DNA from: a virus
Length of the DNA: 41,589 nucleotides
Virus record (IMG/VR): IMGVR_UViG_3300024346_000165
Coordinates: 1-41,589 of that record
Strand: one strand, 5' to 3'
Within the stretch, counting starts at the first letter, position 1; each line of letters begins with the position of its first letter. Position numbers and translations under genes: made by a program. The notes under the pieces are model-generated. The model worked only from the letters and a program-made list of their open reading frames with translations. It was not told the origin of the DNA and searched no databases. Below are positions 13,646 to 41,589 of the stretch, piece by piece.

Positions 13646-13649
13646 GTTG

Positions 13650-14783
13650 TTAGCGGAGAGTAAATCTCTCCTTTTGTTTTTCGAGGATACCTGCGGAATT
13701 GCATTTATCCAGAAATTCTGTAGCTCGCTCGCCTTTCTCACCTTTCTCAGCTTGGTCTCCGACCAGTTTAGCTGACTTGGTGACTGGGAATGCGGCTAGC
13801 TCTAGGAGTTCGGAGGAGTCGACACCCATTTCTTCAGCTATATCAAGCAACTTGTTGTTGCTCACTATCTTGCTAGGTGCTCCCATGCTGATAAGGCGCA
13901 GGGATGGGAACTCAATCCCATCTTTTGCCATATCGACTGCCCTTGTGCGTAAGCGTTTAGCCCATGCCTCGACGATCTTTGAAATGTTCCATAGCTCTTC
14001 GATAGCTGCGGGGTCTTCAACGGACTCGATGTCAATATTGGTGAAGTCTTGCCTCTTCAGGTTGGACGCCACATCTAGGACTAAGCCGCCCAAAGATGGG
14101 CATCGGTCTTCGTGGAGGCAGAACCTACAATACTGAGTGGGTGTGCAGTCAGAAGCATCTGGGCATTGACCACCACCCCACTGAGGGCGGACACGCTCAC
14201 CTTCCTTGATGATGCGGCTAAGAACCTCAGTCAGGACTGACATCTCACTCCGATCAAATGACCCAACAATAGGGTCGCTTGATCTTTGTGGCACATAGAA
14301 GGCAAACTCAATACGCTCAATGTCAGGGTGTTTCTGGAACACACCTAGGGTGTAAGCCATTGCTTGCTGGTTGCTGTGTGGTGGGTCAATTAGGCTGATG
14401 CCTGTCTTGTAGTCAGCGAGAACGGCAAACTTACCATCCTCGGAGATGGACAGACGGTCACATGTACCAAATGTCTCACACCCATCAAGACGAATCTTGA
14501 GGAAGACCTCGTGATAATCATCTATCAGTTTTAAATTAGGGAATGATTCAAGTAAGTGATCATCTTCCATCTCTGCACATCGTGTGTAGAGATCAAGCTC
14601 CTCTTCGTTATGTAGTGCGCTTGGGTCACGCACCTCTAACGCTTCGTGGATGCGGGTTCCCATCTCAGCAGCGGCACTTGTACCACTGCGTCCTTGAAAA
14701 CCCGCACATGAAGCGATGTACTTTAACTGGCTGGGGCTGAACTCAGCGTGTCCCCTGTCAGCGTGCGGCTGCTTAGCTGGCAT
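13650..14783 (-). CDS. PD-(D/E)XK nuclease, Cas4/RecB-like (DUF2800-type)
   Basis: A 377-residue nuclease. The catalytic core is visible: MGTRIHEALE (H46), EVFLKI (E92), FGTCDRL (D109) and VLADYKTG (D124, K126), which match the H, GxxD and (D/E)xK elements of RecB/Cas4-type exonucleases. A cysteine group follows (CPDASDC...YCRFC...DRCP), as in members that hold an iron-sulfur cluster. It would resect or process DNA ends during recombination and replication. The start ATG overlaps the end of the upstream 60-residue gene by 11 nt. Together with the SNF2 helicase, RuvC-like resolvase and SSB-position gene it forms a recombination module common in phages. Family confidence is high; exact polarity of digestion is unknown. 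Confidence 0.85.
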   Translation of the reverse strand: MPAKQPHADRGHAEFSPSQLKYIASCAGFQGRSGTSAAAEMGTRIHEALEVRDPSALHNEEELDLYTRCAEMEDDHLLESFPNLKLIDDYHEVFLKIRLDGCETFGTCDRLSISEDGKFAVLADYKTGISLIDPPHSNQQAMAYTLGVFQKHPDIERIEFAFYVPQRSSDPIVGSFDRSEMSVLTEVLSRIIKEGERVRPQWGGGQCPDASDCTPTQYCRFCLHEDRCPSLGGLVLDVASNLKRQDFTNIDIESVEDPAAIEELWNISKIVEAWAKRLRTRAVDMAKDGIEFPSLRLISMGAPSKIVSNNKLLDIAEEMGVDSSELLELAAFPVTKSAKLVGDQAEKGEKGERATEFLDKCNSAGILEKQKERFTLR

Positions 14784-28200: not shown

Positions 28201-31200
28201 CTGGACTCTTCGGGTTAAACCGTGCCTCTAATAAAGGTAGGACTATGGATGACTTTGATTCAGCCCCACTGCTTAATGGTTTGTGGGCTGAGTATACTCT
28301 CATGGTTAACCTTGCAGGGATCAGGGCACAGCTTGCAAAGGAGCAGTTGATATCTTCGGAGACAAAGAATGGTAAGTCGACAGGTAAGTTTGTTGCCAAG
28401 ACAATTAACGGCAAGACAGACAAAGCCGTTGATAGATTCTTAGAGTTCTTTAAATTCGATAGCACAGAAGAAGCCGCCGCAGTACTGGGGGAGAGGATGA
28501 GAATCCAGCGTTCATTCTACGACCCAGCAGAACGCACCTACCAAGCCATGAGTGCGGAAGCTAAGGTAGCGAGGAACAAGAAGGTGGTGCTTGCTTACCT
28601 TGAGCAGCACGTGTTGAACCATGACCGATTGAGTGATGGTGTCGCGCCTTCGTTAACTGACATTGGTCGGACAGTGCGTGACAGGATCAGAGGACAGAAT
28701 GAGGTGAGGTCAGGACGTGATCCACTAGCAAATGCTACCTCTACCTCAGGTGATAGTGAAGGTAACATGATGACAGATACCGAGCGTGCCGCTCTGTATG
28801 AGAGACAAGGGATGGCTGGTGTTGTAGAAACTAAAACTAACCTGACCGATCTAGACCGCACCGACGATGATGCGGTGGGAACAGAAGAAACTGATGGGTT
28901 TAACATTGGTATGACTGAGGAACAAGTTGCTACCCTTGGGCAACGGTTCTTAGACCAGAGATTTAAGGAGGCTAATGCTAGTGTAGTTGAAACGATTAAC
29001 GCAGACCCCAAAGCTAAGCGTGCTTTTGTTGACATGCTACGCACAACAATCCACGCAGATCAGCACAGACCAGATAAGTTTTATGAGACGATGAACGTGT
29101 CCATGTTGTGGAGTGCCATGGCGGGTAGCGTGACTCATGCTACGCACAAGCACAACGCTGACATGCTCAGCTTCTTGAAGCTGCTGAAGTTTAATGCATT
29201 GGAGTCTCAGCGTGACATGGTTGATGCTGTCAAGTATGTGCTGTTCCCTGACAACGTGAGTGAGACCTTCGCTAAACCATACCAAGAGCAGTTAATTGCA
29301 TGGGGTGTGCCAGTGTCAGGGAAGGCAGGTCTTGTGAAGACTATGGGCTTCCTCAACAACCTGAGTAAGACTCTCCAGTCTCACCACGCAGAAGCGGCAA
29401 TCACTGAGGCGCAGCGTGGTGATGCTATCATCGCCAACACAGCAGATGCTGAGCGATTAGGTTTAGTTAATGGTGACCCATCATCAGTCGTCAAAGCGTT
29501 GAATGTAATCAAGCAGACTTCGGCTAATGAGAACCACAAGCTAGTTGCTGAGCTACTGCTTGAAGATCCCGACTTTATCCAGAGTGTGGACTTCCGTATG
29601 AGCAAGCAGTCTGACTTATCGGGTGGTCGTTATGACCTAGGAACCGACGGGTCACACACAGTGAGCCTGAACATAGCAGGGTATAACGGTCGCGGGTTAG
29701 AGAACGTGCTGCTTGAAGAATACATACACGCCTACCTGTCTGAGACACTGAGCAAGCCAGCGTCACAGTTGACTGCTCAGCAAAAAGCAGGGGTTGAGAG
29801 ACTCAAGGGGCTACACAAATTAGCAAAGGCTGCGTATGAAAAAGAGGGTATCAAACATTCATCAGTAGAGTATAGCTTACAGAACATGACTGAGTTCGTA
29901 GCTGCCCTCCTAGTCAACCCAGATTTCCAGACGTTCATTAAGTCTATCGAACCACAAGGTAAGCAGAGAGGCTTGCTTCCCCGCTTAGTGGAAGCCATCT
30001 TCAATATGCTTAGGTCTATTGCTGGAAAGAAGCTGACTGAAACTGAGGCAAGTGCATATCAAGAAGCACTCACTGATGTGATTGACCTAGCTAGGTCATC
30101 AGCAACAAGCGACCGACCTAGCTTAGAGGCTCTTGCTGGTAATGTTATAGCTGAGAAGATCAAAGATAACACAGCACGCACTGACTCAATCAAGAACCTA
30201 CTTTCTATAGCCCCATCTATGGAGGGCACAACCCTACGTCCTGCACCCAATACCATCCCTCCTCTAGTTGATGCGGGACGTGATGTGTTCAAGAAGCAAC
30301 CCATCATGAAGGAGATGTGGGACACTGACATGGATGCTGATCAGCTTACGGATTATATAACTGATACCGCTATCCCATTCATTCGCGCATTCACACCAAG
30401 TGAGGTTGAGGTTGTCATCGTTAACCAGACACCCAAGCCACACGGTCAGGAGCACGCTATGTTTATGAAGGGTGGCAAGCTTTACGTTAGCCCCCGTGGT
30501 CTAGCTAGTCTGGTCGCACAGATTGAAGGAGACGGTAAGAACAACAGCACTGCTCTTGAAGCTACGTTCCTTTCTATCATTGATGAGGAGGTGAGCCACG
30601 TCGCGAGCTACCTTCAGCTATCTGCTACAGAGATAACACAGGTGGGGAAAGCTCTCGGCATGGATGGACTGAGCGAGGTGGCAAGAGAATACTACACTAC
30701 CCCTGAGCAAGCCGACGCTGCTATCGCTAGGCTTAGGTCAGAGAATCCTGATGAAGCAAAGGCGGAGGCAGATACACTAGTCGAGGAGCACCTACGAATG
30801 CAGTCGCAACGAGCACTGCGTGGGTATACCACTGAGGAGGACTTACTATTCTACCGCACGAACCCATCACTATTCAAGGTCTTGGGTCGATACATCTTTG
30901 GTTCTATCAAGGCGCTGGTCAACAGGCTCGCAATACATAAGAGGAAAGATTTGATTAACACCAAGGTGATCAGGCTGACTGCTGAACTGCGGCGCATCAA
31001 GGCAAGCTACCGCAGTGGAAAAACGGTAGAGTTGTTTGATCCTAACAACCCAGAGCATAACATCAATGTGCTGCGTGCTATAAGCAACGAGCCTATGACG
31101 CAGGAGATTGAAGCCTTGATGAACGAGGCTGTTACGGAGCGTGCTGAAGAGGTAGACACACCAGCCGTGAACACCATGGCTGGTCTTGGTCTGGACATGA

Positions 31201-34200
31201 GCAAGCTAGACTTTGACCATGTCCCCCACTTATTTGAGATGCCAGCTATAGCATCAGGTGCTTATGCTAAACCCAATAAGATTAGCCGTCTGTTCATGGG
31301 TGATGCAGACCCACGTGTCACTAGACTTTACCAGCAATACCAGTCATGGATGAAGGAAGGTGAGGAGACAGTAAGAAGATTTGAAACTACATTCCACAAG
31401 CTTGTCGTAAGTGCATACGGTTCTAAAGAAGAAGCACCACACTCTGTGATTGCTAAGGCTATAGGCACGAACATGACTATTGACATTGACCCTGAGATAA
31501 GGGCTGCAATCGAGGACTCACTTGATGCTGAACTCAAAGCAATCAACAAAAACCAATCCCTTAAAGGTGATGCTCAAGTAGAGGCACGCAAAGATGCAAG
31601 GGCTGGGGCACGTAAGAGATACGCTGACAAATTAAAGGATGCCTTTGATGCACGTCTCGCCTCAACAAGAGTAGAGCAAGAGCAAGCTATCAATACTATT
31701 AAGAGCACCTCGCCTGAGTTAGCTGAGCACATCCTAGTCATGCGTAATGACCTGATTGATGAGCTATCTAAGATCATAAAGAATACATACAACACTAAGG
31801 ATGACGGTGGAGTAGACAACTACTTGGGTATTAAGATTGATGCATCGTTAGGTGTCTACGTCACACGCTCTTACCGTATGTTCACTGACCCAACTTACTA
31901 CCAGACCATCAGAGATAGCTTGGCACTAGGTAAAGAGGGTGACCACGAAGCTTTGATCAATGAAGCCGAGTCTCTATTCAGAACACAATACATGGAGACA
32001 CAAAGGGAGAAGAACAGCAAGCTCATGCAGGACAACCGCAAGTCTGATGAGGAGGTAGATCAAGAGTCCCTTCGTTTCTTACAAGAGAACCCAGACTACG
32101 CACGCGAACAGCTACTGAAGTTCGTTGACTCCTACCAGTCTTCACGAACAGGAGGTAGTAATGCAGGGCTAGACCCAGTAACTGATAGCTTGAAGCGTAA
32201 GGAAGACTTGCCCGAAGTATTAAGGAAGGCACTCGGTGAACACACCAATGAGGAAGAGGGGCTGACAAACCTGCTCCGCTCATATGCCACTGTCATGACC
32301 ATGGCAAGCAAGCAGTCCTTCCTTAATAACGTAGTCACTCTCGGTCGTGCCCTCCATGATTCGGAGGCTACGATAGAAGACAAGTTCCTCATGACTCCTG
32401 AAGAATGGGAAGAAGCTAGAATGGTAGACCCTGACCGCTATGGTGGGTGGCAAAAGATTCAAGGTTCACGAACCAGTATACATGATCCATTGCTAGGGCT
32501 GCGTGCACCACCTGAAGTGGTAGAAGATCTCGCCAACCTGACAGCGAGCATGATGCACGACCCACACAACGATGCCGCAAAACTTATGAGGCGAATGAGC
32601 ACAGGGTTGTCAAGGGCATCGGGTGCAGCCATGGGTATCAAGACACTTGGTAACCCAGGATTCTACGTGCGTAACGCGGTATCTAACGTGCTCTTCTTCG
32701 GTCCCTCACAAGGTTTCTTTGACGTTCCGAAGATGGTATCACAATTCAAACAAAGTCTAAGAGACATGAGTGTTGATGGTGTGGATGCCAGACTCATCCG
32801 ATACAACGGGCTTCGTCTGCTTGGTGACAACATGAGGACAGAAGTTATTCGTGAGTTGCTACATGGAAAGGCGGAGGAGAATGATGTGATGCGTGAGCTT
32901 AACATCATCCAAGAAAAGATCAGCAAGATAGAGGCAGCAGAAGGACTAGGAAAAGCTGGAAGTTGGGTCAGTCAGAAAACTGAGAAGCTATATGAAAGGG
33001 CGCGAGACTTGGCAGATGCAATGGATGCCTTCTACAAGATAGCTTACTTCGAACACGAACGTGGTATCCTGCAAGACGCTAAAGACTTGGGTATGGGTGA
33101 CCGCTACAGTGAGATGAGTGATCGTCAACTAGAACTAGAGGCTGCACACAAGGTGCACAAGACAGCACAGATGGCTAGCCAACGAGTCGAGATAGCTAAG
33201 GAGTATGCCAAATCCCCAGCAGGTTTCTTGTTCGCACCATTCATAGGGTTCACTGCTGATGTATTCAGGATACCCATCAACACATGGAAGATGGTGAAGG
33301 AGGAGATTAGTGATGCTAACCCTGTCATCCGTAGACGTGGCACACGTAGACGCACAGGTCTACTGTCTGTGATGGTTGGTGGTAGTGCTATTCTACCTAC
33401 GGCTCTGACCATCCTTGCTTCTGGTCTAGACTTAGAGGAGAAGGACGCGCTAATGCAGGGCGAGAAAGACTACAACAAAGGTAAGTCATACTTCTTCTTT
33501 AGGAAAGCGGATGGGACTATCGTGTATGTAGACATGACTTACATTAATCCCTTCGCCATGCTAGTTGACCCAGCCTTACGTGCGGGAGAACAATTGTTCC
33601 TCGGTAACTTTAAGCAGACTGCGGTTGCCATGATGAAAGGGTGGGTCGGTGATACCATAGCTAAAGAACAGATCTTTGCGGGAGCAGCTTGGCAACTATT
33701 CAGGAATCAGGATGCAGCAACAGGCGCACCTATCTATGACATGAAGGTGGATGGTATTGATGAGCTACTCATAAAGATGGGCGACCATCTGTGGACCAAT
33801 GCCTTTGAACCAAACCTAGCTAGGGTAGGTGGTGAGGTATTGAATCGTGCTGGTATGGAGACTGAAAGCTTTGATGAATCAGCCTTTGGTCAAGCTGCCT
33901 CTCTGATCTACCCCACTAGAATAAAGACCTTGGATGTAGAGCGGAACTTCAGACGCATGATGTTTGCTGAGAAGGACTCCGCAAACAACTCACGCAAGCA
34001 ACTGTTTGAACTATACAAGCGTGCACCTATGACTGATGAAGCAGTGCGCGACATCTACACTGACTACTATGAACGTAGCTACAAGCATGACCAGAGGTTA
34101 TACAGATACACCAAAGCATTCCAGAGTTTAGGTATCACAGACTACCAGATGCGCACACTGATGGTGAAGGGTGGCTTCGGTAAGAGACACACAGATAACA

Positions 34201-34343
34201 TACTCTACCTTGGTATCACTGAGTCACCGAGTATCAGTCCACGATTGATGCAAGGTCTTGAAGAGCGTGGTCTAATAACTAGAGCCAACGCGTACTTCAA
34301 AGCGTACGCTAATGCAGTGCGCGTGCGCTCACTGCGTCAGTAA
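22233..34343 (+). CDS. Giant polyvalent internal/ejection virion protein
   Basis: A 4036-residue protein, the largest feature here, read from ATG 22233 after the leader ACCAAACCGTTTCAGTT. Visible parts in order: charged helical N-terminus; Gly/Ala-rich hydrophobic, membrane-active-looking segments at about 520-570, 685-710 and 810-840; a long acidic disordered stretch at about 1110-1320; a small beta domain near 1310-1390; helical regions; two zincin-like segments with EExxH (2495-2499 and 2785-2789); long coiled-coil regions; a segment NPGFYVRNAVSNVLFFG near 3474; and a hydrophobic helix VMVGGSAILPTALTIL near 3712. The C-terminal third resembles the shared core of large polyvalent phage proteins, which enter the host with the genome. 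I see no RNA polymerase motifs. Domain boundaries are rough. Confidence 0.8.
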   Translation: MPEQRTQLRPLGVYDDPESKPVDFSSFSTWAAETNADVDDAKSRSQYGDYVRNSYLEAGLLDNPEEGGKIESYIQEGVITSLSEGGFVDLDDPEAVEEMMSFGNDTPLDKKLGYIQNYYDEDSEEWNIAEKYLRNNEALGQATSDVAEDADVLDRASSYEEQALALINGDAYQKALQYAVDSGATPMARLRDKETGEEYYKGGKMLDGMSYADAVKISIANGSLSPSDSGFAGSLFQKQRGSALPEYKRAALSKTDRMLSVMSSRDEEGGGMNDEATIMKMDVINEKLEDGEDADKELAELYQYLEYSRLLDKGELPDFEDFKVAATENIKKQNLYKKEVKAAGDADVGSNLLLSQYNDPVLHPAAAVNDEVFRATLLAHPELGEDQIKALVQSREDFITANYGSYGEILSKSKYADKWNKHRDAGLAAGKKKRDILTEYMSDPDNYNQTSDFWSGIGASITEAYEGLGAAIPAIVFDSEWGKGVLQKNAEDSMVRREVASMYGNEYGMTRDVAETLAPMLADMAVSTALAVGTAHAGGAGGVAYAVGASAARNAAMSAAKAGIKGAASKFVQSKAFTASYARQFGKTIKTRAFMPKIGEGVEEAAERLALTNKITGGAKALKDGSAVEAIKAYNKTFTGKYAAQVGVALPAANRSAGATYGTVYNQLDGLYEDMGEEEKNDIAMGAALQAGAFTGLLTSAFGMFGFGGIDDALLNGATASQLRTVMGPLLSRGGEPMSKGVFNKVASGLMTELIKKNRLLSVQGLKESATGAIEEGLEEGIDEFVNGLVIDASTDQETPFLDRMLQSFHAAQVGGIIGAGVPVVQRVGAFANANKALALDPNKGARIEADFTNELTKRLSDKGSPLSADVVSGILNSSARNKDVLYEDRLSAHSIVKKNLQTLNEAQNATPDELAELSGVTDFDMPTGDAPIPKNTPISDLSAEQQRTYAFQRRMREVQTEPMGESTRMDVILGERKIEAGTPLWELSEREYTDYTRAENKIAELRGDSAPDIPAYDSKLMSQKRETARLAEEEVTQEQSKKRSKNIKDEVPTDEAPAFRPIPTIESDINNITADLEKETDEGVVLALEDERATLINELDEAVQNEAETGVDQADVNAQLNEETNPLETKTGKDTPPAKPVAAEAETEEEVEAEEEDVPEAAAPAMDEVRKNLKSVNAKLARLRKKHNALKDANTTAQTDTEVEPTERKHWTDDPEIYRQVAELGAEIAPLREEAASLKATLEEAKEQAKAVAKPAKQTETTITESGAELDNGEAGEDIEGETPVKKVKSTRKTKSKTYGRIPAKDIKAGTSIVYYAADASGPLQMVTANMSASEFSVLPEGDETDTRVVEVTDADTREVYYLVGKDDTPLVEMERVSPNEEFAGINTEDPSLVAYPSKDVRKARRNQSMDALTNPDQLRSLESVAVERLRSNPLDIEAQTQMGYAQSKLADMGEASFVDTEKARQVDEKETEQANRILTAWERQSRSSADPDDANFVPPKQEFAAEAAPTEDDLNGKNIKPWPYKPTDNEREAALLDALSDEALAELVPIDSAPQKLASLRGEQALSSPEAVQQWQINQIRDIILSGYPVTIGQGEARGLLPQSKDFLSQVDLPEGEDIKSWRKYFRHVISSKIAEVYPTIDTSTYVEASQSNVELAKKRAAKASQTAAYVEWSPPKLQVQRLMENDTKFSNEIDLESKTQWSDDEITRAEQVFSKISQDPELHSATKRAAATQLKAIAQARKDSTRPKFKPDLSKGIQAVKTDSKVTNYAVNEDGSISLMDSGKATYFINKNGSGIFNNDPVIIAEMLLSGVPVKIPKAILTNTGEDSTNITRSQINPAIKYDQQGNVYRVLRLNGQGNNYEVVQHSSRLSGVMPDEGYSEKTASVVKAINAQAVDSLRVNAANLASDAKAYSENSNHIILEAPKESYEVSQILDSFEGFIESARRWLDSYGGNPVPESIEGESQSRRDRRAEMERVNARQAAFNLTGLFGLNRASNKGRTMDDFDSAPLLNGLWAEYTLMVNLAGIRAQLAKEQLISSETKNGKSTGKFVAKTINGKTDKAVDRFLEFFKFDSTEEAAAVLGERMRIQRSFYDPAERTYQAMSAEAKVARNKKVVLAYLEQHVLNHDRLSDGVAPSLTDIGRTVRDRIRGQNEVRSGRDPLANATSTSGDSEGNMMTDTERAALYERQGMAGVVETKTNLTDLDRTDDDAVGTEETDGFNIGMTEEQVATLGQRFLDQRFKEANASVVETINADPKAKRAFVDMLRTTIHADQHRPDKFYETMNVSMLWSAMAGSVTHATHKHNADMLSFLKLLKFNALESQRDMVDAVKYVLFPDNVSETFAKPYQEQLIAWGVPVSGKAGLVKTMGFLNNLSKTLQSHHAEAAITEAQRGDAIIANTADAERLGLVNGDPSSVVKALNVIKQTSANENHKLVAELLLEDPDFIQSVDFRMSKQSDLSGGRYDLGTDGSHTVSLNIAGYNGRGLENVLLEEYIHAYLSETLSKPASQLTAQQKAGVERLKGLHKLAKAAYEKEGIKHSSVEYSLQNMTEFVAALLVNPDFQTFIKSIEPQGKQRGLLPRLVEAIFNMLRSIAGKKLTETEASAYQEALTDVIDLARSSATSDRPSLEALAGNVIAEKIKDNTARTDSIKNLLSIAPSMEGTTLRPAPNTIPPLVDAGRDVFKKQPIMKEMWDTDMDADQLTDYITDTAIPFIRAFTPSEVEVVIVNQTPKPHGQEHAMFMKGGKLYVSPRGLASLVAQIEGDGKNNSTALEATFLSIIDEEVSHVASYLQLSATEITQVGKALGMDGLSEVAREYYTTPEQADAAIARLRSENPDEAKAEADTLVEEHLRMQSQRALRGYTTEEDLLFYRTNPSLFKVLGRYIFGSIKALVNRLAIHKRKDLINTKVIRLTAELRRIKASYRSGKTVELFDPNNPEHNINVLRAISNEPMTQEIEALMNEAVTERAEEVDTPAVNTMAGLGLDMSKLDFDHVPHLFEMPAIASGAYAKPNKISRLFMGDADPRVTRLYQQYQSWMKEGEETVRRFETTFHKLVVSAYGSKEEAPHSVIAKAIGTNMTIDIDPEIRAAIEDSLDAELKAINKNQSLKGDAQVEARKDARAGARKRYADKLKDAFDARLASTRVEQEQAINTIKSTSPELAEHILVMRNDLIDELSKIIKNTYNTKDDGGVDNYLGIKIDASLGVYVTRSYRMFTDPTYYQTIRDSLALGKEGDHEALINEAESLFRTQYMETQREKNSKLMQDNRKSDEEVDQESLRFLQENPDYAREQLLKFVDSYQSSRTGGSNAGLDPVTDSLKRKEDLPEVLRKALGEHTNEEEGLTNLLRSYATVMTMASKQSFLNNVVTLGRALHDSEATIEDKFLMTPEEWEEARMVDPDRYGGWQKIQGSRTSIHDPLLGLRAPPEVVEDLANLTASMMHDPHNDAAKLMRRMSTGLSRASGAAMGIKTLGNPGFYVRNAVSNVLFFGPSQGFFDVPKMVSQFKQSLRDMSVDGVDARLIRYNGLRLLGDNMRTEVIRELLHGKAEENDVMRELNIIQEKISKIEAAEGLGKAGSWVSQKTEKLYERARDLADAMDAFYKIAYFEHERGILQDAKDLGMGDRYSEMSDRQLELEAAHKVHKTAQMASQRVEIAKEYAKSPAGFLFAPFIGFTADVFRIPINTWKMVKEEISDANPVIRRRGTRRRTGLLSVMVGGSAILPTALTILASGLDLEEKDALMQGEKDYNKGKSYFFFRKADGTIVYVDMTYINPFAMLVDPALRAGEQLFLGNFKQTAVAMMKGWVGDTIAKEQIFAGAAWQLFRNQDAATGAPIYDMKVDGIDELLIKMGDHLWTNAFEPNLARVGGEVLNRAGMETESFDESAFGQAASLIYPTRIKTLDVERNFRRMMFAEKDSANNSRKQLFELYKRAPMTDEAVRDIYTDYYERSYKHDQRLYRYTKAFQSLGITDYQMRTLMVKGGFGKRHTDNILYLGITESPSISPRLMQGLEERGLITRANAYFKAYANAVRVRSLRQ

Positions 34344-34352
34344 TCTGGGCAC

Positions 34353-34391
34353 AAAAAAAGCCCCGCCTCTCCAGTGAAGGAGGGCGGGGCT
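34353..34391 (-). terminator. Strong intrinsic terminator for the leftward block
   Basis: A G/C-rich hairpin with arms AGCCCCGCC/GGCGGGGCT plus a CTCC/GGAG extension (one bulged T) and a 6-nt loop. Read leftward it ends in seven T residues, so it terminates transcripts from the 41589-34408 block. On the plus strand it lies just after the giant gene and could also stop that transcript, though no U-tract follows there. Confidence 0.9.
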
Positions 34392-34407
34392 GTCGTATCA
34401 TGGAGCT

Positions 34408-34590
34408 TTAGGACTCCACTATATTATCATGGTGGCAGGGTAGGGGCTTGCCACAAATGCAGGTAGCTTTCAATCTTGCGTCCCGCTTCTGCCAGAACAG
34501 GGCTTCCCTATATTTCTTCGGGTCTGTTCTAATGTCACGGTCACCTTTGCCACCAGTTGCTTTGTCGTATGGGTGTGTTGAATCAGACAT
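34408..34590 (-). CDS. Small Cys/His-containing protein
   Basis: A 60-residue protein (MSDSTHPYDKATGGKGDRD...). The first half has a DKATGGKGD stretch like those seen in other short phage proteins. The second half has CICGKPLPCHH, a C-x-C-x5-C-H-H cluster that could bind zinc. ATG 34590 follows the leader GCAACCCACTACTAGAC. It is the last gene before the terminator. Function unknown. Confidence 0.6.
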   Translation of the reverse strand: MSDSTHPYDKATGGKGDRDIRTDPKKYREALFWQKRDARLKATCICGKPLPCHHDNIVES

Positions 34591-34676
34591 GTCTAGTAGT
34601 GGGTTGCGTATCCTAGTGATATTAATCTCTCATTGATATTCACATTGTCAAGCCAGATAGTGCCAAGCCATCTGCC

Positions 34677-34946
34677 TTACCACTTGACCTTATCCGCCCA
34701 GTATGCTGCTGACATCTTGCCCTTGTTTATGTTCTTGGCGTGCCGAGCTTTGAAAGAAGCTTGGCGCTTGGTGGGTTGCTTGTCTCCTGTCACACCCTGT
34801 TGTCCAAACCGTATAGTCTTTTGTTTCCCCCCTTCCGAGGCGACAACTACATGACTCTTGGTTTTGTGCTTGGGTGTGCGCTTGGGTTTGTTGACCCCAG
34901 AAAGACCCAGTCTTTTTACAGTAGCATTAACACGATCAGATGGCAT
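34677..34946 (-). CDS. Small basic conserved-type phage protein
   Basis: An 89-residue, very basic protein. I chose ATG 34946 (MPSDRVNAT); a TTG six codons upstream is possible. The pattern ASEGGKQKTIRFG, then KRQASFKARH, then MSAAYWADKVKW resembles a family of short uncharacterised phage proteins of the general form G-K-x-x-x-R-F-G ... F-x-x-R-H ... Y-W-x-x-x-x-W. High Lys/Arg content suggests nucleic-acid binding, but no function is established. It lies in the small-gene end of the leftward block, 86 nt before the next gene. Confidence 0.7.
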   Translation of the reverse strand: MPSDRVNATVKRLGLSGVNKPKRTPKHKTKSHVVVASEGGKQKTIRFGQQGVTGDKQPTKRQASFKARHAKNINKGKMSAAYWADKVKW

Positions 34947-34983
34947 GTGAATAACTTTACACAAGTTCTACCTAAGCGTCAAC

Positions 34984-35412
34984 TCATTCAATATACTCTG
35001 CTCCTTTGGATGGGTGTTGAGCATAGGCTTGCACCGCTAGCCACATGGCTTTGGATGCTAGCCAGAAGGGATAGAACTGACTTGATGTGTCAATAATTTC
35101 AGCACTAAATTGCCCTTCTATTTTTTCAATCACCTTAGACATCTCACCTTGAGACATCAACTCTTCAAGGTCGTCCTTGATGGTATCACTCAGGCTTGCA
35201 TGTGAGTTGCGTGATACAAAGTATGTGATCCATAGCATGATGTCGATCATGATTGATGACGGCACTAGTGTTTGTCCATGTGACTTGAACTTGTCTCTGT
35301 ATTTAGTAGGCATGCACTCGTATTCATCGTTGGCGAGGACTCTTATCTCATCGTCGAAGATAGACTGAAATTCTTTCAGCAGTTCGACGTTACTTGTTGT
35401 TGGTATTTCCAT
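34984..35412 (-). CDS. Helical protein of unknown function
   Basis: A 142-residue, mostly helical, mildly acidic protein. A central hydrophobic helix (SSIMIDIMLWITYFVS) and an aromatic C-terminal helix (FYPFWLASKAMWLAVQAY) are visible; neither looks like a clear transmembrane segment with flanking charges. ATG 35412 lies inside the end of the DnaA-like gene (23-nt overlap) and follows the leader AATAAACCAACTGATAAAAT, again without a Shine-Dalgarno sequence. No family is recognised. Confidence 0.65.
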   Translation of the reverse strand: MEIPTTSNVELLKEFQSIFDDEIRVLANDEYECMPTKYRDKFKSHGQTLVPSSIMIDIMLWITYFVSRNSHASLSDTIKDDLEELMSQGEMSKVIEKIEGQFSAEIIDTSSQFYPFWLASKAMWLAVQAYAQHPSKGAEYIE

Positions 35413-35686
35413 AGTATTTTATCAGTTGGTTTATTATTTGGTGTAGTTCTTTATCATGTTTCAATCCCTCAATCTTATTGCAGCCATGTATGATGGTGGA
35501 TGTGTGTCGGTTGAAGTATGCTCCTATCTCAGCGAAGGTTAAACCCTCATGCCTGAGCACATAGAACAAGGACGTCCGCCACATGGTCAACCTCTGCGTG
35601 CGGGACGAGGACTTGAAGTCAGCCACGCTGAAGCCAGAGAGTTCGCTAGCATAGGAGGCTAGCTGTTCACTAGAGTTAGTCATCAT
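35390..35686 (-). CDS. DnaA domain IV-like DNA-binding protein
   Basis: A 98-residue protein consisting mainly of a helix-turn-helix like the C-terminal domain of DnaA. LTFAEIGAYFNRHTSTIIHG followed by CNKIEGL aligns with the DnaA signature (L-x-x-I-G-x-x-F-x-x-R-x-H-x-T-V-x-H-x-x-x-K-I), keeping the IG, F, R, H, T, I, H and KI positions. The ATPase domain is absent. It may bind DnaA boxes, at a phage origin or on the host chromosome. It starts at one of two tandem ATGs (35686 or 35683) after a good ribosome binding site (GGAGGA, 35700-35695), and overlaps the upstream membrane peptide by 4 nt. Family resemblance is good; the role is inferred. Confidence 0.75.
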   Translation of the reverse strand: MMTNSSEQLASYASELSGFSVADFKSSSRTQRLTMWRTSLFYVLRHEGLTFAEIGAYFNRHTSTIIHGCNKIEGLKHDKELHQIINQLIKYYGNTNNK

Positions 35687-35886
35687 GGTCTGTCTCCTCC
35701 TATTACTATGCCAGTCCAATAGACTAGCACCACCATGGAGAGGATGATCAGCGCTGCTACGCAGCTTGATCTGAGGGTAGCACCCTGCGTCTCAGCCTTG
35801 GTTGCCTTACGCCACTTAGGTAGGGGTCGGGCTGCTGCTTCTATAACCTGATACATAGGTTGCATTGGTGGTCTTCGCTTACGCAT
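35683..35886 (-). CDS. Small single-pass membrane protein
   Basis: A 67-residue protein with a basic N-terminus (MRKRRPPMQ, then KWRKATKA) and one hydrophobic helix near the C-terminus (CVAALIILSMVVLVYWTGIV, about residues 42-61), giving an N-in single-pass topology. Start ATG 35886 has an AGGAG (35897-35893) 6 nt upstream. Its stop overlaps the next start as ATGA. The upstream gene overlaps its start by 8 nt. Small membrane proteins in phage accessory blocks can be holin-like, exclusion or host-takeover factors; none of these can be shown here. Confidence 0.65.
   Translation of the reverse strand: MRKRRPPMQPMYQVIEAAARPLPKWRKATKAETQGATLRSSCVAALIILSMVVLVYWTGIVIGGDRP
35687..35700 (-). promoter_or_regulatory. 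True Shine-Dalgarno for the DnaA-like gene
   Basis: GGAGGA on the minus strand (35700-35695), 8 nt before ATG 35686. Noted because most genes in this window lack such a site. Confidence 0.7.
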
Positions 35887-36091
35887 TGCCGTCTCCTCTC
35901 CCTACCCCCTGCCTTATGATGTCATGTGCATGGAGTGTGATGTCCTTAGGGGAGCAGCCAAAGGACATGGCTACTACCTTGAATGGTTCGTGGTCATCCT
36001 CGTCAAGAGATCTGAATGTGATGACCTCAAAGCCAAGGTGCTTGGAACACCACATCATATTACTTAGGATTAGTTTTCTTATTAGCTTCAT
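35879..36091 (-). CDS. Small protein of unknown function
   Basis: A 70-residue protein (MKLIRKLILSNMMWC...). The N-terminal 13 residues are amphipathic, and a strand pair follows (FEVITFRSLDED, FKVVAMSFGC). Its ATG overlaps the MarR-like stop by 4 nt (ATGA), and the end overlaps the next start by 8 nt, so it is part of a tightly packed translational unit. The leader AACCCAACAACATC lies inside the upstream gene. No family is recognised. Confidence 0.6.
   Translation of the reverse strand: MKLIRKLILSNMMWCSKHLGFEVITFRSLDEDDHEPFKVVAMSFGCSPKDITLHAHDIIRQGVGRGDGNA
35887..35901 (-). promoter_or_regulatory. Shine-Dalgarno for the membrane peptide
   Basis: GGAGAGGAGAC on the minus strand, with AGGAG (35897-35893) 6 nt before ATG 35886. 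It lies inside the end of the upstream gene. Confidence 0.65.
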
Positions 36092-36393
36092 GATGTTGTT
36101 GGGTTAACGATTGAGCTAGCAAGTGCCTTGCCCTTATCAGTTAAGGTTATGAGTACTGATCTTCTGTCGGAGTAGCTTCGATATCTCTTAGCATACCTCA
36201 ATCTCTCAAGTTTGTCGATGATACCAGTCATCGCACCCGCACTCACACCGATCTCTCGGGCTATGCTATTGGTGCTGCGTGGTGCATACATACTAAGGGA
36301 TAGTAAGGCAAGCGTCTGTCTCACACTGAGTGGGGCTGATGCGGCAGCCTTGAATTGCTCTTGTGTTTTCTTTACGTTGTTCAATATTAACAT
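36088..36393 (-). CDS. MarR-like winged-helix regulator
   Basis: A 101-residue protein with a MarR-type winged helix. STNSIAREIGVSAGAMTGII is the helix-turn-helix, DKLERLRYAKRY leads into the wing with the family-typical S-D-R-R (YSDRRSVLITLT), followed by DKGKALASSI. It is shorter than most MarR proteins (about 140) and lacks most of the dimerisation helices, so oligomeric state is uncertain. It likely regulates transcription of the accessory block or host genes. ATG 36393 follows the leader CACAAACCAATAGAACC. Its stop overlaps the next ATG by 4 nt. Confidence 0.8.
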   Translation of the reverse strand: MLILNNVKKTQEQFKAAASAPLSVRQTLALLSLSMYAPRSTNSIAREIGVSAGAMTGIIDKLERLRYAKRYRSYSDRRSVLITLTDKGKALASSIVNPTTS

Positions 36394-36411
36394 GGTTCTA
36401 TTGGTTTGTGG
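36394..36411 (-). promoter_or_regulatory. A/C-rich leader of the MarR-like gene
   Basis: The whole 18-nt intergenic region reads CCACAAACCAATAGAACC on the minus strand, from the upstream stop to ATG 36393. It has one G and no Shine-Dalgarno match. Confidence 0.55.
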
Positions 36412-36933
36412 TTATTCGTAGATGGCAATAGGGGAGATGTCCACTGCATGGGTGTAGTTGTCCCCCTCGTCATGCACCACATACTTGATAGTGAACTGAG
36501 GGAATGACTGGCTGGATACCCATTCGGGAATGTCATCACAGGTTACTTGGTTCACACAGTGTTCATCCATGAGGGCTTCAGTGAGTAATGACTTCAGCTT
36601 AGGTAGGTCGGTCATGTCAATGTCAGCCAGCACGGCAATAGCTGGCGTGTCTAGCGATGGGATTACGAGTAGTAGGTTTAGTTTCCTTTTCATTGGTTTG
36701 TTATTGGTTTGGTTTGGTTTGGTTTGGTCTGGGTTTAGTCTTCGGACATCATCAGCAAGGGCTTCAATGTAAGACCACACGTTAAGTGCGGGGTGATCCT
36801 CAAATACTTCCCACGGATGAGCTTTGATGTGCTCAAGGATGTCATCCTCATCACCATACTCGAAGATGTCGGCAGGGAATGGTGTTGATAAGAAGTGTGC
36901 ACTTGCCCACACTAGGCTTTGTTCTTTAGTCAT
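36412..36933 (-). CDS. Two small ORFs fused in frame through a leader repeat
   Basis: One open frame of 173 codons from ATG 36933 that looks like two genes. The first part (MTKEQSLVWASAHFL..., 65-70 residues) is acidic and helical. Then comes a linker NPDQTKPNQTNNKP coded by AAACC repeats, and at 36693 an ATG starts a second module (MKRKLNLLLVIPSLDTP..., 93 residues) with alternating strands. The linker DNA looks exactly like the A/C-rich leaders that precede other starts here, so the second module is probably also translated on its own from 36693. The extension upstream to 36984 uses TTG and is rejected. Neither module matches a family I know. An assembly indel in the repeat is an alternative explanation for the fusion. 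Confidence 0.6.
   Translation of the reverse strand: MTKEQSLVWASAHFLSTPFPADIFEYGDEDDILEHIKAHPWEVFEDHPALNVWSYIEALADDVRRLNPDQTKPNQTNNKPMKRKLNLLLVIPSLDTPAIAVLADIDMTDLPKLKSLLTEALMDEHCVNQVTCDDIPEWVSSQSFPQFTIKYVVHDEGDNYTHAVDISPIAIYE
36706..36730 (-). repeat. Pentanucleotide (AAACC)n repeat
   Basis: Four perfect GGTTT units on the plus strand (36706-36725) plus one variant GGTCT (36726-36730); AAACC on the coding strand. A 5-nt unit means any change in copy number shifts the upstream reading frame. Confidence 0.85.
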
Positions 36934-36950
36934 TGGTTTGGTTTGGGTTA
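36934..36950 (-). promoter_or_regulatory. AACCCAAACCAAACC leader
   Basis: The minus strand reads TTAACCCAAACCAAACCA directly before ATG 36933, with no G and no Shine-Dalgarno match. It is nearly identical to the leader at 40256-40282. Confidence 0.6.
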
Positions 36951-36999
36951 AGACCCCCACCCCTGATAAAAGAGGCAGGGTCAATGATGCAGTGTTCAG

Positions 37000-38052
37000 T
37001 TACCCAGCAATCTCAAGCACGCGTGTTGCCTCATCCACTACGGAGAGGTGATCGTTGTCTACTAGGTAGCGACCGAAGTCTACCTTCCGAGTAGCAGCAC
37101 CACCAAACTCAGAGGAGAATACCTGCTGACCTACTGGGGTAGAGATACCAGTGCCATCACCATGTGTGTAATACTCAGTCACACCATTGAAGATGTCATA
37201 GAGTGTCTCACCCCTGTTGCCCCGACCATGTCTAGCAAGGTCAGCAATACCATTGATGTGGTTGCTGGTGCGTGTGCCAAAGCCAGCACTGAGGTCAGTC
37301 CCTGCATTGACAGCAGCCTTCAAGAAGTAACCACCGATGATGGGTGCAATGTCTGTGTCTGCTACTGGTGTAGCACGTAGCTGATCCATTGCCTCAATGA
37401 ATCGCTGCCTCTCAAGCAGCACCTCATTGATCTGATTACCCATGTCCTCACACTTAGCAACGGTGTTGCCACGGTGCTGCACCTTGAGCTTGAAGCTGTG
37501 ACTACCACGCAGTGATGCTTGACATGTATTCATACACACAGTGCGGACGGCTGAGTCCATACCTACGAGGGTGATCTCCCCTGTGTGGCTCGTCATGAAG
37601 TTCAGGTTGCCTAGGTATTTATCATCACCAACCATGAAGCCGCCGTCTTCATCACCGATGGCTACTGATAAGAAGAACCAGCCCAACCCACACAGTGTGC
37701 CAGCACACGTTAGCTTATAGGGCATGTCGATACCACGCAGTGCGAGGCTCAGTGTATCCCATACCATCTCATTGGAGATGATGCTATACCTCTGGCTGCT
37801 GATGTGTAGAGGGTGGAGTTCACCATCCATTGACCGAGCAACCAAGGACTTGTGGTTGGGTAGGGTGACGTGCCTACCACCCACACTAGCAGTTACTGCG
37901 CCCTCTAAAATTTCGGGGAACAATCCGTTGCGTCGTGCGTCCGCCTTCGTGAGGCGATCAGTAGCGCATACAGTTTCGAGATTGTGCCAAGTGCGGTAAG
38001 CCTTGCCTTGTGGTACGATGATAGTATCTTTTTCTGTTTTACAATGTGACAT
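37000..38052 (-). CDS. DUF932-type protein
   Basis: A 350-residue protein of the DUF932 (phage/plasmid-like, TIGR03299-type) family. I chose ATG 38052 (MSHCKTEKD) over the upstream frame to 38118 because it follows an A/C-rich leader and leaves the hairpins at 38094-38158 untranslated. Family-like features are the LHISSQRYSIISNEMVW block near the N-terminus, GWFFLSVAI, LNFMTSHTGE, the AVRTVCMNTCQAS segment where the family has a conserved Cys-x-N, and a long helical middle (NQINEVLLERQRFIEAMDQL). DUF932 genes are frequent in phages and plasmids, but no biochemical function is established. It lies downstream of the cysteine peptidase gene in the leftward block. Confidence 0.8.
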   Translation of the reverse strand: MSHCKTEKDTIIVPQGKAYRTWHNLETVCATDRLTKADARRNGLFPEILEGAVTASVGGRHVTLPNHKSLVARSMDGELHPLHISSQRYSIISNEMVWDTLSLALRGIDMPYKLTCAGTLCGLGWFFLSVAIGDEDGGFMVGDDKYLGNLNFMTSHTGEITLVGMDSAVRTVCMNTCQASLRGSHSFKLKVQHRGNTVAKCEDMGNQINEVLLERQRFIEAMDQLRATPVADTDIAPIIGGYFLKAAVNAGTDLSAGFGTRTSNHINGIADLARHGRGNRGETLYDIFNGVTEYYTHGDGTGISTPVGQQVFSSEFGGAATRKVDFGRYLVDNDHLSVVDEATRVLEIAG

Positions 38053-38093
38053 AATGTTTTTGTTTTCTATTTTTAGTTGTTGTTTTGGTAGCG

Positions 38094-38158
38094 GTTTCAA
38101 AGAATATGAAACACGCATAGCTGCTCACTAACGCAAGGCTAGTGAGCAGGTGATGCGT
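38094..38158 (-). promoter_or_regulatory. Tandem hairpins between peptidase and DUF932 genes
   Basis: A 10-bp perfect stem CTGCTCACTA/TAGTGAGCAG (38121-38130, 38140-38149) with a 9-nt loop is extended by an outer ACGCAT/ATGCGT pair (38113-38118, 38153-38158). Next to it is GTTTCA/TGAAAC (38094-38099, 38107-38112). No clear U-tract follows on the minus strand. It could be a weak terminator, a processing site or a structured leader for DUF932. Confidence 0.55.
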
Positions 38159-38162
38159 AGTC

Positions 38163-38876
38163 CTATTGTTTGTTTGCGATTTGGAACTCGCCGTTAAGGA
38201 ACTCTACTAGTTCCTCGACTCGCGTCAGTGCGTCGTCCCAATCATGACGGCAACGCTCGTCATCAAGGTAGCTTGGCACGTCGACACCTTCAGGTTCATA
38301 CACCCAGCATCTGAAGTAGTCATCGTAACGCTCGACATCTAGGGTGATGCCATACTTATCAGCTAAGCGCATGACCTTAGCCCGTGCTGCATTGACCTTA
38401 GCCTTAGCCTTGAGTGCATTGACCTGAGCCTTCTCACTCACAGGATGTGGGTAGGCAGGAAGCTTTGCCTTGCCTGTCATCTCATACACTTGAGCAACAC
38501 GTGACCTGCGCTTGACAGCATCTGCTCTGATACTGATTAGCTCGCGGGTTCTGCCACAGATGTAGCGTCTACCCGTGACGATCTGGAAGTGGTGACCTGC
38601 CACCACTAAGAACACACGACCTGCCGTGCGCTGCTTAACGGAGTGCTTGAACCACTGGTTCAGAGTCAGCCCCCTCACCTTGGTTTGGTTGGTGGCATGT
38701 AGCCCGAAGTCAGACAGCGCACGTATGAGGTGTGTCGTCTGTGCTCCACGCACTGCTCGTTGCTTGGAGTGATGCCTGATTGCAGTGGCTGCGTCATCAG
38801 TTGTCACACCTGTCAGTGCTGCGATTACTGCGGGTCCGCAGTATTTATTCTTACCTACTATATCATATAGTTTCAT
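38163..38876 (-). CDS. C39/papain-like cysteine peptidase domain protein
   Basis: A 237-residue protein from ATG 38876 (MKLYDIVGKNKYCGPA). An in-frame ATG at 38915 would add 13 residues, but the downstream one follows the leader AACCCAAACAAG and places the catalytic motif at the N-terminus as usual. NKYCGPAVIAALTG (nucleophile Cys13) followed by helices and GRVFLVVAGHHFQIVTG (His95/96) gives the Cys-His arrangement of C39-like and papain-like peptidases; the third acidic residue is not obvious. A Lys/Ala-rich helix and an acidic aromatic C-terminal domain follow. It could cleave peptides or isopeptide bonds. It lies directly downstream of the amidotransferase-cyclotransferase gene. The fold call is good, the substrate unknown. 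Confidence 0.75.
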   Translation of the reverse strand: MKLYDIVGKNKYCGPAVIAALTGVTTDDAATAIRHHSKQRAVRGAQTTHLIRALSDFGLHATNQTKVRGLTLNQWFKHSVKQRTAGRVFLVVAGHHFQIVTGRRYICGRTRELISIRADAVKRRSRVAQVYEMTGKAKLPAYPHPVSEKAQVNALKAKAKVNAARAKVMRLADKYGITLDVERYDDYFRCWVYEPEGVDVPSYLDDERCRHDWDDALTRVEELVEFLNGEFQIANKQ

Positions 38877-38905
38877 TGTTGTTTCCTTTCTTGTTTGGGT
38901 TATGT
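38877..38905 (-). promoter_or_regulatory. A/C-rich leader of the cysteine peptidase
   Basis: The minus strand reads ATAACCCAAACAAGAAAGG and then AAACAACA before ATG 38876. The AAAGGA stretch may give weak 16S pairing; otherwise it matches the AACCAAA leader class. Confidence 0.45.
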
Positions 38906-38913
38906 TGTTACTC

Positions 38914-38943
38914 ATTAATGATTGCTTGTTGGTAACTAGTCAA
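38914..38943 (-). promoter_or_regulatory. Possible promoter before the cysteine peptidase
   Basis: TTGACT (38943-38938), 18-nt spacer, ATTAAT (38919-38914) on the minus strand. The start would fall after the first ATG (38915) and make 38876 the first usable start codon. The -10 match is only moderate. Confidence 0.3.
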
Positions 38944-38947
38944 TAAC

Positions 38948-40255
38948 TTATTTACACAATCTGAATAACTCTGGGATGGGGTTGGTGTTGTAGCATTCAG
39001 TCCACTCAGCATGCTTGGGTGCATCATGTGTAGCATAATACATCCATGCTTGTAGGACTTCGCCGTTGTCAAGCTGGACATCAGTCAACTCACGATGGTA
39101 GTGAGTGGGCACACCCTCCAGTGAGTCAAGCTGTGACCACGTGGACTGTGAGTTAACCTCGACTACCTCTACTACAATCTGATGACCTTCTGGATGATCA
39201 CCCTCATAGGTGTAGGGTATACCCTTGTCTTCCATGCGTAGCCTGTCAACGCTACGACCAGCACCCAACCACTGATCACTGTCAGTGAACAGTCGGTCGT
39301 TGCCACCGCCACGCTTGAGTGTGCCATACACTGCGACTAGCTCGCCGTTGGCAGGTAGCTCGGGCACGTTCAACAGTTCACGATAGTGTGCCTCATTGCC
39401 AATGTCCATGTCGTAACCATTGCACTCGTCAACAGCTTTGATTCGATTGTAACACTCATCAAGTATCCAATCTAAACTGGATGGTAGACTACCACTCAAG
39501 TCTTGAGCATACTCAAGCAAGGCTGTTGCACTGTAGACTTCATCAAGGTCTGCCATGTGCACGCTGTAGTCTATGTTCTCTTCGATGTGAGTCAGTATGA
39601 TATCGGCACTTTTGCCTAGATGCTGCATGGTATCACACTCATCATGCAACAGGCTGGTCACTGTCTCCTCTTCACCATCAGTGGTGCTGATCTCATGAGA
39701 CTCATAGTATGACTCATCATAGTATGAGTCAGTAGGGTAGTAGTCCTTGGTGTAGTAACTACCATGCCAACTGGCAGCAGACTTGAAGCAGTTGTCCTTG
39801 GAGTAGAACACACCCTTCTTATCATACCACTTGCCATAGGTCAGCACCTCTAGTTCCTTGTCAACCACTACGAATCTAGTGTCAGTCATGCTGAGCAACG
39901 TAGCCCAATGCTCACGAGGTATTGACTCAAGGTAGCCAGCCACGACTCGGGTGTCACTAACCTTGTCACATCCAAGAGGCACAGTTCCATTGGAGAATAC
40001 ATGACCAATGGCACAGGGTGCAGGGTGAATGTTCTTCTTGTTGATCTTACCTTGCGTGGCATACCTGAAGTGTGCAACGAACGGACGCTCTACATTTACA
40101 AGAGCATCAACACTCTTGTAGTCTAGGGTCTTGATCAACTCGCCGTTGTCAAGATACAGGATGCCGAAGCCATCGGGATTGATACGCTTGGCATTGCTAA
40201 GATACTTACTTGGAATCTTAGACTTGTGGTTTGGTTTGTATATAATTAAACACAT
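38948..40255 (-). CDS. Class II glutamine amidotransferase fused to gamma-glutamylcyclotransferase
   Basis: A 435-residue two-domain enzyme. The N-terminal domain (about 1-190) is an Ntn-hydrolase glutamine amidotransferase: MCLIIYK gives the N-terminal nucleophile Cys2, NPDGFGIL (26-33) and FVAHFRYATQG (59-69) with H77 fit GATase-II substrate motifs. A linker of about 110 acidic, Tyr-rich residues follows. The C-terminal domain (304-435) is a GGCT/AIG2-like cyclotransferase: VAVYGTLKRGGGN (307-319) and LDSLEGVP (376-383) with the expected catalytic Glu380. One half releases ammonia from glutamine or cleaves a gamma-glutamyl amide, the other cyclises gamma-glutamyl groups to oxoproline. Leader AACCCAAACCAAAC. 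It is 47 nt downstream of the amidoligase gene. Domain calls are firm; the reaction in vivo is inferred. Confidence 0.85.
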   Translation of the reverse strand: MCLIIYKPNHKSKIPSKYLSNAKRINPDGFGILYLDNGELIKTLDYKSVDALVNVERPFVAHFRYATQGKINKKNIHPAPCAIGHVFSNGTVPLGCDKVSDTRVVAGYLESIPREHWATLLSMTDTRFVVVDKELEVLTYGKWYDKKGVFYSKDNCFKSAASWHGSYYTKDYYPTDSYYDESYYESHEISTTDGEEETVTSLLHDECDTMQHLGKSADIILTHIEENIDYSVHMADLDEVYSATALLEYAQDLSGSLPSSLDWILDECYNRIKAVDECNGYDMDIGNEAHYRELLNVPELPANGELVAVYGTLKRGGGNDRLFTDSDQWLGAGRSVDRLRMEDKGIPYTYEGDHPEGHQIVVEVVEVNSQSTWSQLDSLEGVPTHYHRELTDVQLDNGEVLQAWMYYATHDAPKHAEWTECYNTNPIPELFRLCK

Positions 40256-40282
40256 AGTATTATTTAGTTTGGTTTGGGTTGT
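40256..40282 (-). promoter_or_regulatory. AACCCAAACCAAAC leader of the amidotransferase fusion
   Basis: The minus strand reads CACAACCCAAACCAAACTA before an A/T spacer and ATG 40255, with no G and no Shine-Dalgarno match. Confidence 0.6.
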
Positions 40283-40302
40283 GAATTAAATCCATTTAAT
40301 TC
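40283..40302. repeat. 9+9 bp A/T inverted repeat at the amidoligase stop
   Basis: GAATTAAAT-CC-ATTTAATTC, perfect arms with a 2-nt centre, ending at the last base of the amidoligase stop codon. It is too tight for a good RNA hairpin; a protein binding site is as likely. Confidence 0.6.
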
Positions 40303-41589
40303 TATTGGTTCTCAATGAACTCCTTGATGTCGGGATGCACCACGTCATTGAGGATGTAGTCGTTGAACAGATAAGCGTATCGTCTGATATGCTCACGCTT
40401 GGTGGGGCTAGGATACATGTCACGCAACACGTCACGTGTCCGCCGCATGAATCCCTTGAAGGTCAGCTTGTTTTCCACAGCATATGCTAGCTCGCGGAAC
40501 AGCTTGAACCTGTTGATCAAGTTGCCCCCATGCTCAACACGCCGAGGCAAGCGACACTCCACCATCCTACCAGACTTGAGGTAGAAGGGTGCATACTTGG
40601 TGTTGTTATCGGGACACATCTTCTTATTGCATGCAGTGTAGCTACGATGCAAACGCTTGCGGTAGATAGCATAGATCAAGCCAGCGTAGGGGTGGAACTG
40701 TTCAAGGGTCATACCTGCCAGCACTTCAAACCTAATACCACCATCGTTCATGCTGAGCCGTTTGTTATTCACTAGGTTCACGTGCCCACCACATCTCTGA
40801 TCACTTGGCTCATCAGTATAGCTAGATCTCCGCACGTGATCCACGAATAGTTTATACCCCCATTCAGTAAGAGGATAGGCATGAGTGATACCTTCTACCC
40901 CACACGATGAGTCAGTCTCCCATCCTGCAAACAGTGGCTGCTCTCCAACGTATGCACCCTCGCTGTCTTCACCATCCACTGTAGTCTTCTCAACTTCAAA
41001 GCCAACAGTCCAGTGCTTGATGCACTCATACTTATCTTGTGTATTCTTGGGGTGGTCATAGATATGCACACTCGGACTGCTGTGATACTCATTGATGTGA
41101 TCGGGTGAATCACTAGTATTATCATCAATGTCATCAATGTGACGGTATTCCTCAGTCCTGTCACAGTATGCGTAGTCCTCATCACCATCATTAACATACG
41201 TGTCCCGCGATTCTATCCACCAGCAGTTGCTTCGGTAGTTGTATTCTTCACCATTGTAGGTAGTCACCACCTCGTCATCATGTTCGTGGGCATACTCACA
41301 ACAGGATTCAATCCACACGCATTCATCAGTCTCATACCAGTCACCACAAGCAATCTGTGTGATGTCTCGTAGGGGGATGACATCACCATTGGTTGTCATG
41401 GCAATATGATGACAGCAGTCGTTGTCAGTGTCGGGTTCATGGTCGGGGGGTAGGTGATAGTGTAAGCCATCCACCTTACAGGATATCGCGTCCTCACCAT
41501 CACAGTATTGACCATCATATCTACCATCATTAAGGAGGATGGCACTACTGGCAGCTATTACCTCATCGCGGTAGTCGGTGACAGTATCT
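40302..41589 (-). CDS. GCS-like amidoligase, 5' partial
   Basis: The frame stays open to the right edge, so the N-terminus is missing; the GTG at 41474 is internal to the open frame. At least 428 residues are visible. The upstream half is Cys/Tyr/Asp-rich and repetitive (short blocks like NDGRYDGQYCDGED, ECVWIESCCEYAHEHDDEVV, CWWIESRDTYVNDGDEDYAY). The C-terminal half has the layout of the putative amidoligase family of the glutamine synthetase/GCS fold: TVGFEVEK (41006-40983), WETDSSCGVEG, RCGGHVNLVNN and, after a helical stretch, RMVECRLPRR. These supply the Glu, Asp and His metal and ATP ligands. It would join an amine and a carboxylate using ATP. The three genes downstream also handle amide bonds. 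Fold assignment is good; substrate unknown. Confidence 0.75.
   Translation of the reverse strand, partial: DTVTDYRDEVIAASSAILLNDGRYDGQYCDGEDAISCKVDGLHYHLPPDHEPDTDNDCCHHIAMTTNGDVIPLRDITQIACGDWYETDECVWIESCCEYAHEHDDEVVTTYNGEEYNYRSNCWWIESRDTYVNDGDEDYAYCDRTEEYRHIDDIDDNTSDSPDHINEYHSSPSVHIYDHPKNTQDKYECIKHWTVGFEVEKTTVDGEDSEGAYVGEQPLFAGWETDSSCGVEGITHAYPLTEWGYKLFVDHVRRSSYTDEPSDQRCGGHVNLVNNKRLSMNDGGIRFEVLAGMTLEQFHPYAGLIYAIYRKRLHRSYTACNKKMCPDNNTKYAPFYLKSGRMVECRLPRRVEHGGNLINRFKLFRELAYAVENKLTFKGFMRRTRDVLRDMYPSPTKREHIRRYAYLFNDYILNDVVHPDIKEFIENQ

Follow-up and report, generated by a model that had tools for sequence, protein, structure and literature searches.

Here we show that the four neighbouring leftward genes at the right end of a viral metagenome record are two separable pairs, not one conserved cassette, and that one of these pairs, a putative amidoligase gene and a gene encoding a fused glutamine amidotransferase-gamma-glutamylcyclotransferase (GATase-GGCT), is conserved across viral contigs. 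The window analysed is the whole IMG/VR viral record IMGVR_UViG_3300024346_000165 (G000 in the analysis), a marine phage fragment of 41,589 bases. An earlier note on this DNA had read four adjacent open reading frames (ORFs) at 37000-41589 as a single amide-bond cassette. All four are present there, the enzyme identities given to them hold once the starts of the C39-like and DUF932 genes are corrected, and the residue numbers C2, E380 and C13 fit the sequences. The cassette itself does not survive, as surveys of relatives yielded no other locus with all four genes. The note had named a lack of linkage in relatives as the outcome that would argue against it, and this is what was found for the four-gene set; the same surveys tied the amidoligase very tightly to the GATase-GGCT fusion. 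The GC content of the region is unremarkable, promoter and terminator scans gave results at chance level, and a PADLOC search for anti-phage defence systems returned no match.

The fusion gene (ORF 38948-40255, minus strand) encodes a class II GATase domain (residue 1 to about 160) and a GGACT-type gamma-glutamylcyclotransferase domain (residues 307-416), separated by an insert of about 130 residues. The latter domain matches Pfam GGACT (PF06094) with E=1.9e-16 as well as 2kl2/1vkb (AIG2-like), and its YGTLK motif and E380 are kept in 83/83 fusions. The GATase domain of the window protein gives a Pfam match below the cut-off only; across the 83 fusions, its Cys2, Arg64, Asn89-Gly90 and Asp101 are kept without change in 81-83. 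Since the residues of both domains are invariant, both are predicted from sequence to be active. The GATase half need not be an ammonia donor; it may work simply as a glutaminase, or as a gamma-glutamyl transferase. The same fusion, 36-43% identical in the alignment and with an amidoligase upstream, is present in Caudoviricetes MW202828 and phage C75C1, where it is annotated only as "gamma-glutamyl cyclotransferase". In contrast to the window protein, these two fusions lack the inter-domain insert, and C75C1 carries an amidoligase of the PF12224 type in place of the window family.

The amidoligase gene (ORF 40302-41588, minus strand) has 428 visible codons and an open 5' end; its start is missing or uncertain, as the end of the record falls within the gene or directly ahead of it. 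The N-terminal part of the protein is rich in cysteine and acidic residues, and the homologue in a distant relative (locus L105) has a similar N-terminal part with little extra compared with the window protein. The catalytic core spans residues 190 to 428 approximately and contains the motifs GFEVEK, ETDSSCG...E, CGGH and ECRLPRR (E-R-LP). In an alignment of 39 sequences G196, E198, E200, K201, G267, G268, H269, E344, R346 and R360 are invariant, a set of conserved residues that is glutamine-synthetase-like. The window protein has no Pfam match, and none of the 39 family members scored above the gathering score of Amidoligase_2 (PF12224), one of them matching at E=0.033. Profile-profile comparison with the PF12224-type family by hhalign, on the other hand, gave a probability of 84% (E=7.4e-6), and the window-family profile detects amidoligases of Bacteroidales with E=2.9e-7. 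An AlphaFold model built from the family alignment has a core pLDDT mostly above 90, and its top 38 PDB matches in Foldseek are all glutamine synthetases (GS) or GmaS, with E-values of 3e-5 to 9e-4 that are significant despite low TM-scores against GS, of about 0.2. In BFVD the model matches phage proteins annotated as "Amidoligase enzyme", among them the ones from Pseudomonas phage tf and Salinivibrio phage CW02. Profile and fold together thus support remote homology to PF12224, and the product of 40302-41588 is most likely a divergent GS-fold ATP-dependent amidoligase. Of the two folds on which the earlier note had staked its assignments, that of GS is given by the PDB matches of the model and that of GGCT by the Pfam GGACT match.

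The association of these two genes was examined in metagenome contigs, which are mostly fragments. Scans of viral contigs with the single amidoligase or fusion sequence gave no matches, so that alignment queries were needed. Among the best 80 of 202 viral contigs with fusion relatives, ranked by similarity to the window, the amidoligase adjoins the fusion in 73, and the remaining seven fusions start less than 2 kb from a contig edge. After redundancy reduction, an amidoligase lies beside the fusion at 34/34 loci at 70% identity and at 15/15 at 50%. The partner belongs to the window family at 50 loci and to the PF12224 type at 23, never to both together by these profiles; one PF12224-type partner matches PF12224 with E=3.7e-20. 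The pair is not always a tight operon, because at roughly three in four loci small genes intervene between its members (median gap, 919 nt). The fusion sits among replication genes. In Bacteroidales (loci L267, L270 and L276-L279) an unfused class II GATase directly follows an amidoligase of the PF12224 type, as in the pair, but no GGCT domain is present; the pair may descend from such an arrangement in a cell or prophage. As a separate observation, the window encodes at 34677-34964 (minus strand) a protein of 95 aa that has no Pfam match and is 84-85% identical in the related genomes G007 and G009; relatives of it occur in 17 of the 80 best fusion loci, mostly in unrelated phages.

The second pair consists of a C39/papain-like cysteine-peptidase-fold gene and a DUF932 gene. 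In the case of the former (ORF 38163-38915, minus strand), the protein probably starts at Met14 (ATG at 38876), after AGAAAGGA, giving a likely gene at 38163-38876. Pfam and other profile searches gave no sequence-profile match. Cys26, G27, His109 and Q111 (ORF numbering) are invariant in 38 sequences, thus including the Cys-His pair, and the best PDB match of the AlphaFold model (pLDDT 87) is the C39 peptidase of PCAT1 (6mpz, probability 0.99); support for the C39 fold is moderate, as the E-value of this best match is only 3.4e-3. Weak phrog_899 and tblastn hints had suggested that the protein corresponds to the small gene between COOH-NH2_lig and the amidoligase in LUZ24 and Bjorn, an identity that we rejected because Bjorn orf21 has no NxYCGP motif. 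The DUF932 gene (ORF 37000-38118, minus strand) encodes a TIGR03299-like phage/plasmid protein that matches Pfam DUF932 with E=3e-18, above the cut-off, and TIGR03299 with 6.9e-19, below its cut-off. Its relatives begin at MSH, position 38052, and the ATG there is probably the start (likely gene, 37000-38052). For a role of DUF932 as a single-strand annealing protein we found no supporting paper or solved structure. Between the two genes lies a hairpin at 38113-38160 (minus strand), whose arms at 38121-38130 and 38140-38149 extend outwards. It has a stability of -29.8 kcal/mol (z=-5.3; 0/200 shuffles as stable) and no other inverted repeat of 10 nt or more within 40 nt occurs in 34300-41589. 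It is a possible terminator or processing site for the transcript from upstream.

The two pairs keep different company. All four genes together were found at no other locus among the best 80 fusion, the best 80 C39 (of 240 viral contigs), the 35 DUF932 and the 45 terminase (TerL) relatives. Neither the fusion nor either type of amidoligase lies near the C39-like gene in any of its 80 best loci; the fusion is absent from all 29 C39- or DUF932-bearing records, and C39 from all 36 fusion-bearing records, with positive controls in both searches. The amidoligase-fusion pair occurs at none of the 35 DUF932 loci, and the fusion was not found in the 45 terminase-related records. At DUF932 loci, the C39-like gene lies just upstream in 5/35, and DUF932 adjoins a convergent giant-protein gene in 21/35. 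DUF932 is a backbone gene of a giant-protein phage lineage, outside the amidoligase pair. In the TerL relatives G008 and G009, genes for replication, DnaA, MarR and DUF932 occupy similar positions, and the C39, fusion and amidoligase genes were not found. In L105, a distant relative with the giant protein, the fusion is flanked by two amidoligases of the window type (8592-13757), near a DnaA-like gene, where the window has C39 and DUF932. These comparisons indicate that the stretch next to the giant gene varies and that the window joins two modules otherwise found apart.

Other genes of the lineage deserve a brief mention. The giant protein of the window (22233-34343, plus strand; 4,036 aa) has no Pfam or PHROG match, and its relatives across the lineage are 28-37% identical. 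A cytidylyltransferase-like gene (PF01467) at 6480-6956 (plus strand) is 93-96% identical in G008 and G009, where its flanking genes are 61-68% identical, which reflects either strong constraint or recent exchange. At 36412-36984 (minus strand), 81 residues are 93% identical in G008 and the rest is unmatched, while the G009 copy is 36% identical; by its sequence this appears to be a mosaic gene.

What could the conserved pair do? On balance, we lean towards a two-gene unit in which an ATP-dependent GS-fold amidoligase and a bifunctional GATase-GGCT act together, likeliest on peptidoglycan-type peptides. The GATase, with Cys2 made N-terminal by removal of the methionine, would strip ammonia from glutamine. 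At a two-metal site like that of GS, the amidoligase would use ATP to activate a carboxylate and would join it to this ammonia or to an amine. GGCT would clear away gamma-glutamyl caps or side products by cyclising gamma-glutamyl amines to 5-oxoproline, which frees the amine. The likeliest target during infection would be a peptide with gamma-glutamyl or DAP-type carboxylates, e.g., the stem peptides of peptidoglycan or their precursors. All these reactions are inferred and the target above all: peptidoglycan stem peptides are our guess, just as the cell wall is a published guess for the target of the phage amidoligase module. The logic would be that of the wall-precursor amidation by MurT-GatD and AsnB/LtsA, with a trimming step added, and the C39-like protein and DUF932 would act apart from the pair.

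Several other explanations can be weighed against the same data. That all four genes serve one pathway, with the ligase producing a conjugate (gamma-glutamyl or peptide), the C39-like protein acting as acyltransferase or peptidase, GGCT deprotecting the product and DUF932 assisting, would recall butirosin synthesis (ligation by BtrJ, papain-like acyl transfer by BtrH, cyclotransferase BtrG). The genes do share a strand and have short gaps, a GGACT-type cyclotransferase is present, and C39 is a close relative of the BtrH_N acyltransferase domain (PMC10318531). We nevertheless hold such a pathway to be very improbable: the four genes recur together at no other surveyed locus, the two reciprocal searches (0/29 and 0/36) leave C39 unlinked to the fusion, a strong hairpin sets DUF932 apart, and the main ORFs contain no acyl carrier protein and no ATP-grasp enzyme of the BtrJ type. 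Much the same low credence applies to the analogous proposal that the two pairs have merged in the phage of the window alone, in which case the amidoligase and GATase-GGCT would make or trim a conjugate of the gamma-glutamyl type; the C39-like enzyme, as in butirosin synthesis, would transfer this conjugate to a surface peptide or cut it from one, and the resulting phage-made tag would block competitors.

If, instead, the pair served small-molecule nitrogen or gamma-glutamyl metabolism during infection (glutathione, polyamine or glutamine turnover) and not a polymer, this would fit with the presence of GmaS, a gamma-glutamylmethylamide synthetase, among the PDB matches, and GGACT enzymes act on gamma-glutamylamines. 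The amidoligase family, however, differs from GS and GmaS and goes without Pfam recognition, and the related phage module has further peptide ligases, suggesting peptide substrates, so we regard this role as rather unlikely while giving it some weight. A further possibility is that the pair attaches amino acids or amides to the bases of phage DNA, as happens in phages with hypermodified genomes; amidoligases and GATases occur in some base-modification clusters, and the location of the fusion among replication genes would suit such a role. 5-Hydroxymethyl pyrimidines usually come from an enzyme of the thymidylate synthase family, yet none was found in 44 records (controls positive in nine named genomes), and the main ORFs of the window show no ThyA-family enzyme either; this absence makes DNA modification less likely, and we consider it improbable. 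We are equally doubtful about a tagging role, in which the pair would attach amino acids or amides to proteins of the host or phage and thereby alter host machinery. Iyer-type predictions do include protein modification, and the neighbouring ATP-grasp ligase within the known module is annotated as RimK-like, but the 43 fusion-bearing records contain no RimK-type ligase, and no conserved small protein resembling a substrate was identified.

The favoured reading, that of a two-gene unit acting on peptidoglycan-type peptides, bears on a claim repeated for 15 years, that the phage amidoligase module modifies the cell wall, for which we found no experimental test or demonstration in the literature. 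The statement of the earlier note that it knew of no established role for a phage unit of this composition needs qualification: for a larger phage module in which these three enzyme types also occur, a role in peptidoglycan change and superinfection exclusion had been predicted. The two-gene pair is the smallest form of that module seen here, in which GATase and GGCT form a single chain and either of two amidoligase families serves as partner, and, as it would be easy to express and assay, it makes the old cell-wall prediction directly testable. About 200 viral contigs carry the fused gene hidden under the label "gamma-glutamyl cyclotransferase" or under none.

Among known systems, AsnB/LtsA catalyse the glutamine-fed amidation of peptidoglycan precursors. 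MurT-GatD likewise forms amides on wall precursors at the expense of glutamine (PMC3267633) and offers a comparison of working principle; both systems differ from the pair in their ligase folds and in having no cyclotransferase. Closer is the phage module of COOH-NH2 ligase, amidoligase, GATase, ATP-grasp and GGCT, carried by phiEco32, LUZ24, tf, UFV-P2, Bjorn, RIO-1/PSA-HP1, PhiM6 and U17, and proposed to alter peptidoglycan and prevent superinfection (PMC3890496, PMC10580990, PMC5498523, PMC11945000, PMC6256558). In three of these papers (PMC5498523, PMC11945000, PMC6256558), that role is a prediction resting on Iyer 2009 and/or Hardies 2013. With the module of the phiEco32/LUZ24/RIO-1 type the pair shares an amidoligase, a class II GATase and AIG2/GGCT, their location together in an early/replication region, and podovirus-like phages as carriers. 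Of these features the window has the GS-fold amidoligase, which unlike that of the module is of a divergent family, and the class II GATase and GGCT, which here form one protein. A RimK-like ATP-grasp ligase and the second ligase, COOH-NH2_lig (PF14395), were each found in 0/43 fusion-bearing records, the control phage Bjorn being positive for both, and the main ORFs of the incomplete window contain no ATP-grasp enzyme. As both ligases are absent, we file the pair as a reduced, fused variant and not as a full member of the module. Having sought earlier reports of the fusion in open-licence papers, we describe the pair as a slimmed-down variant of the phage peptidoglycan-modification module.
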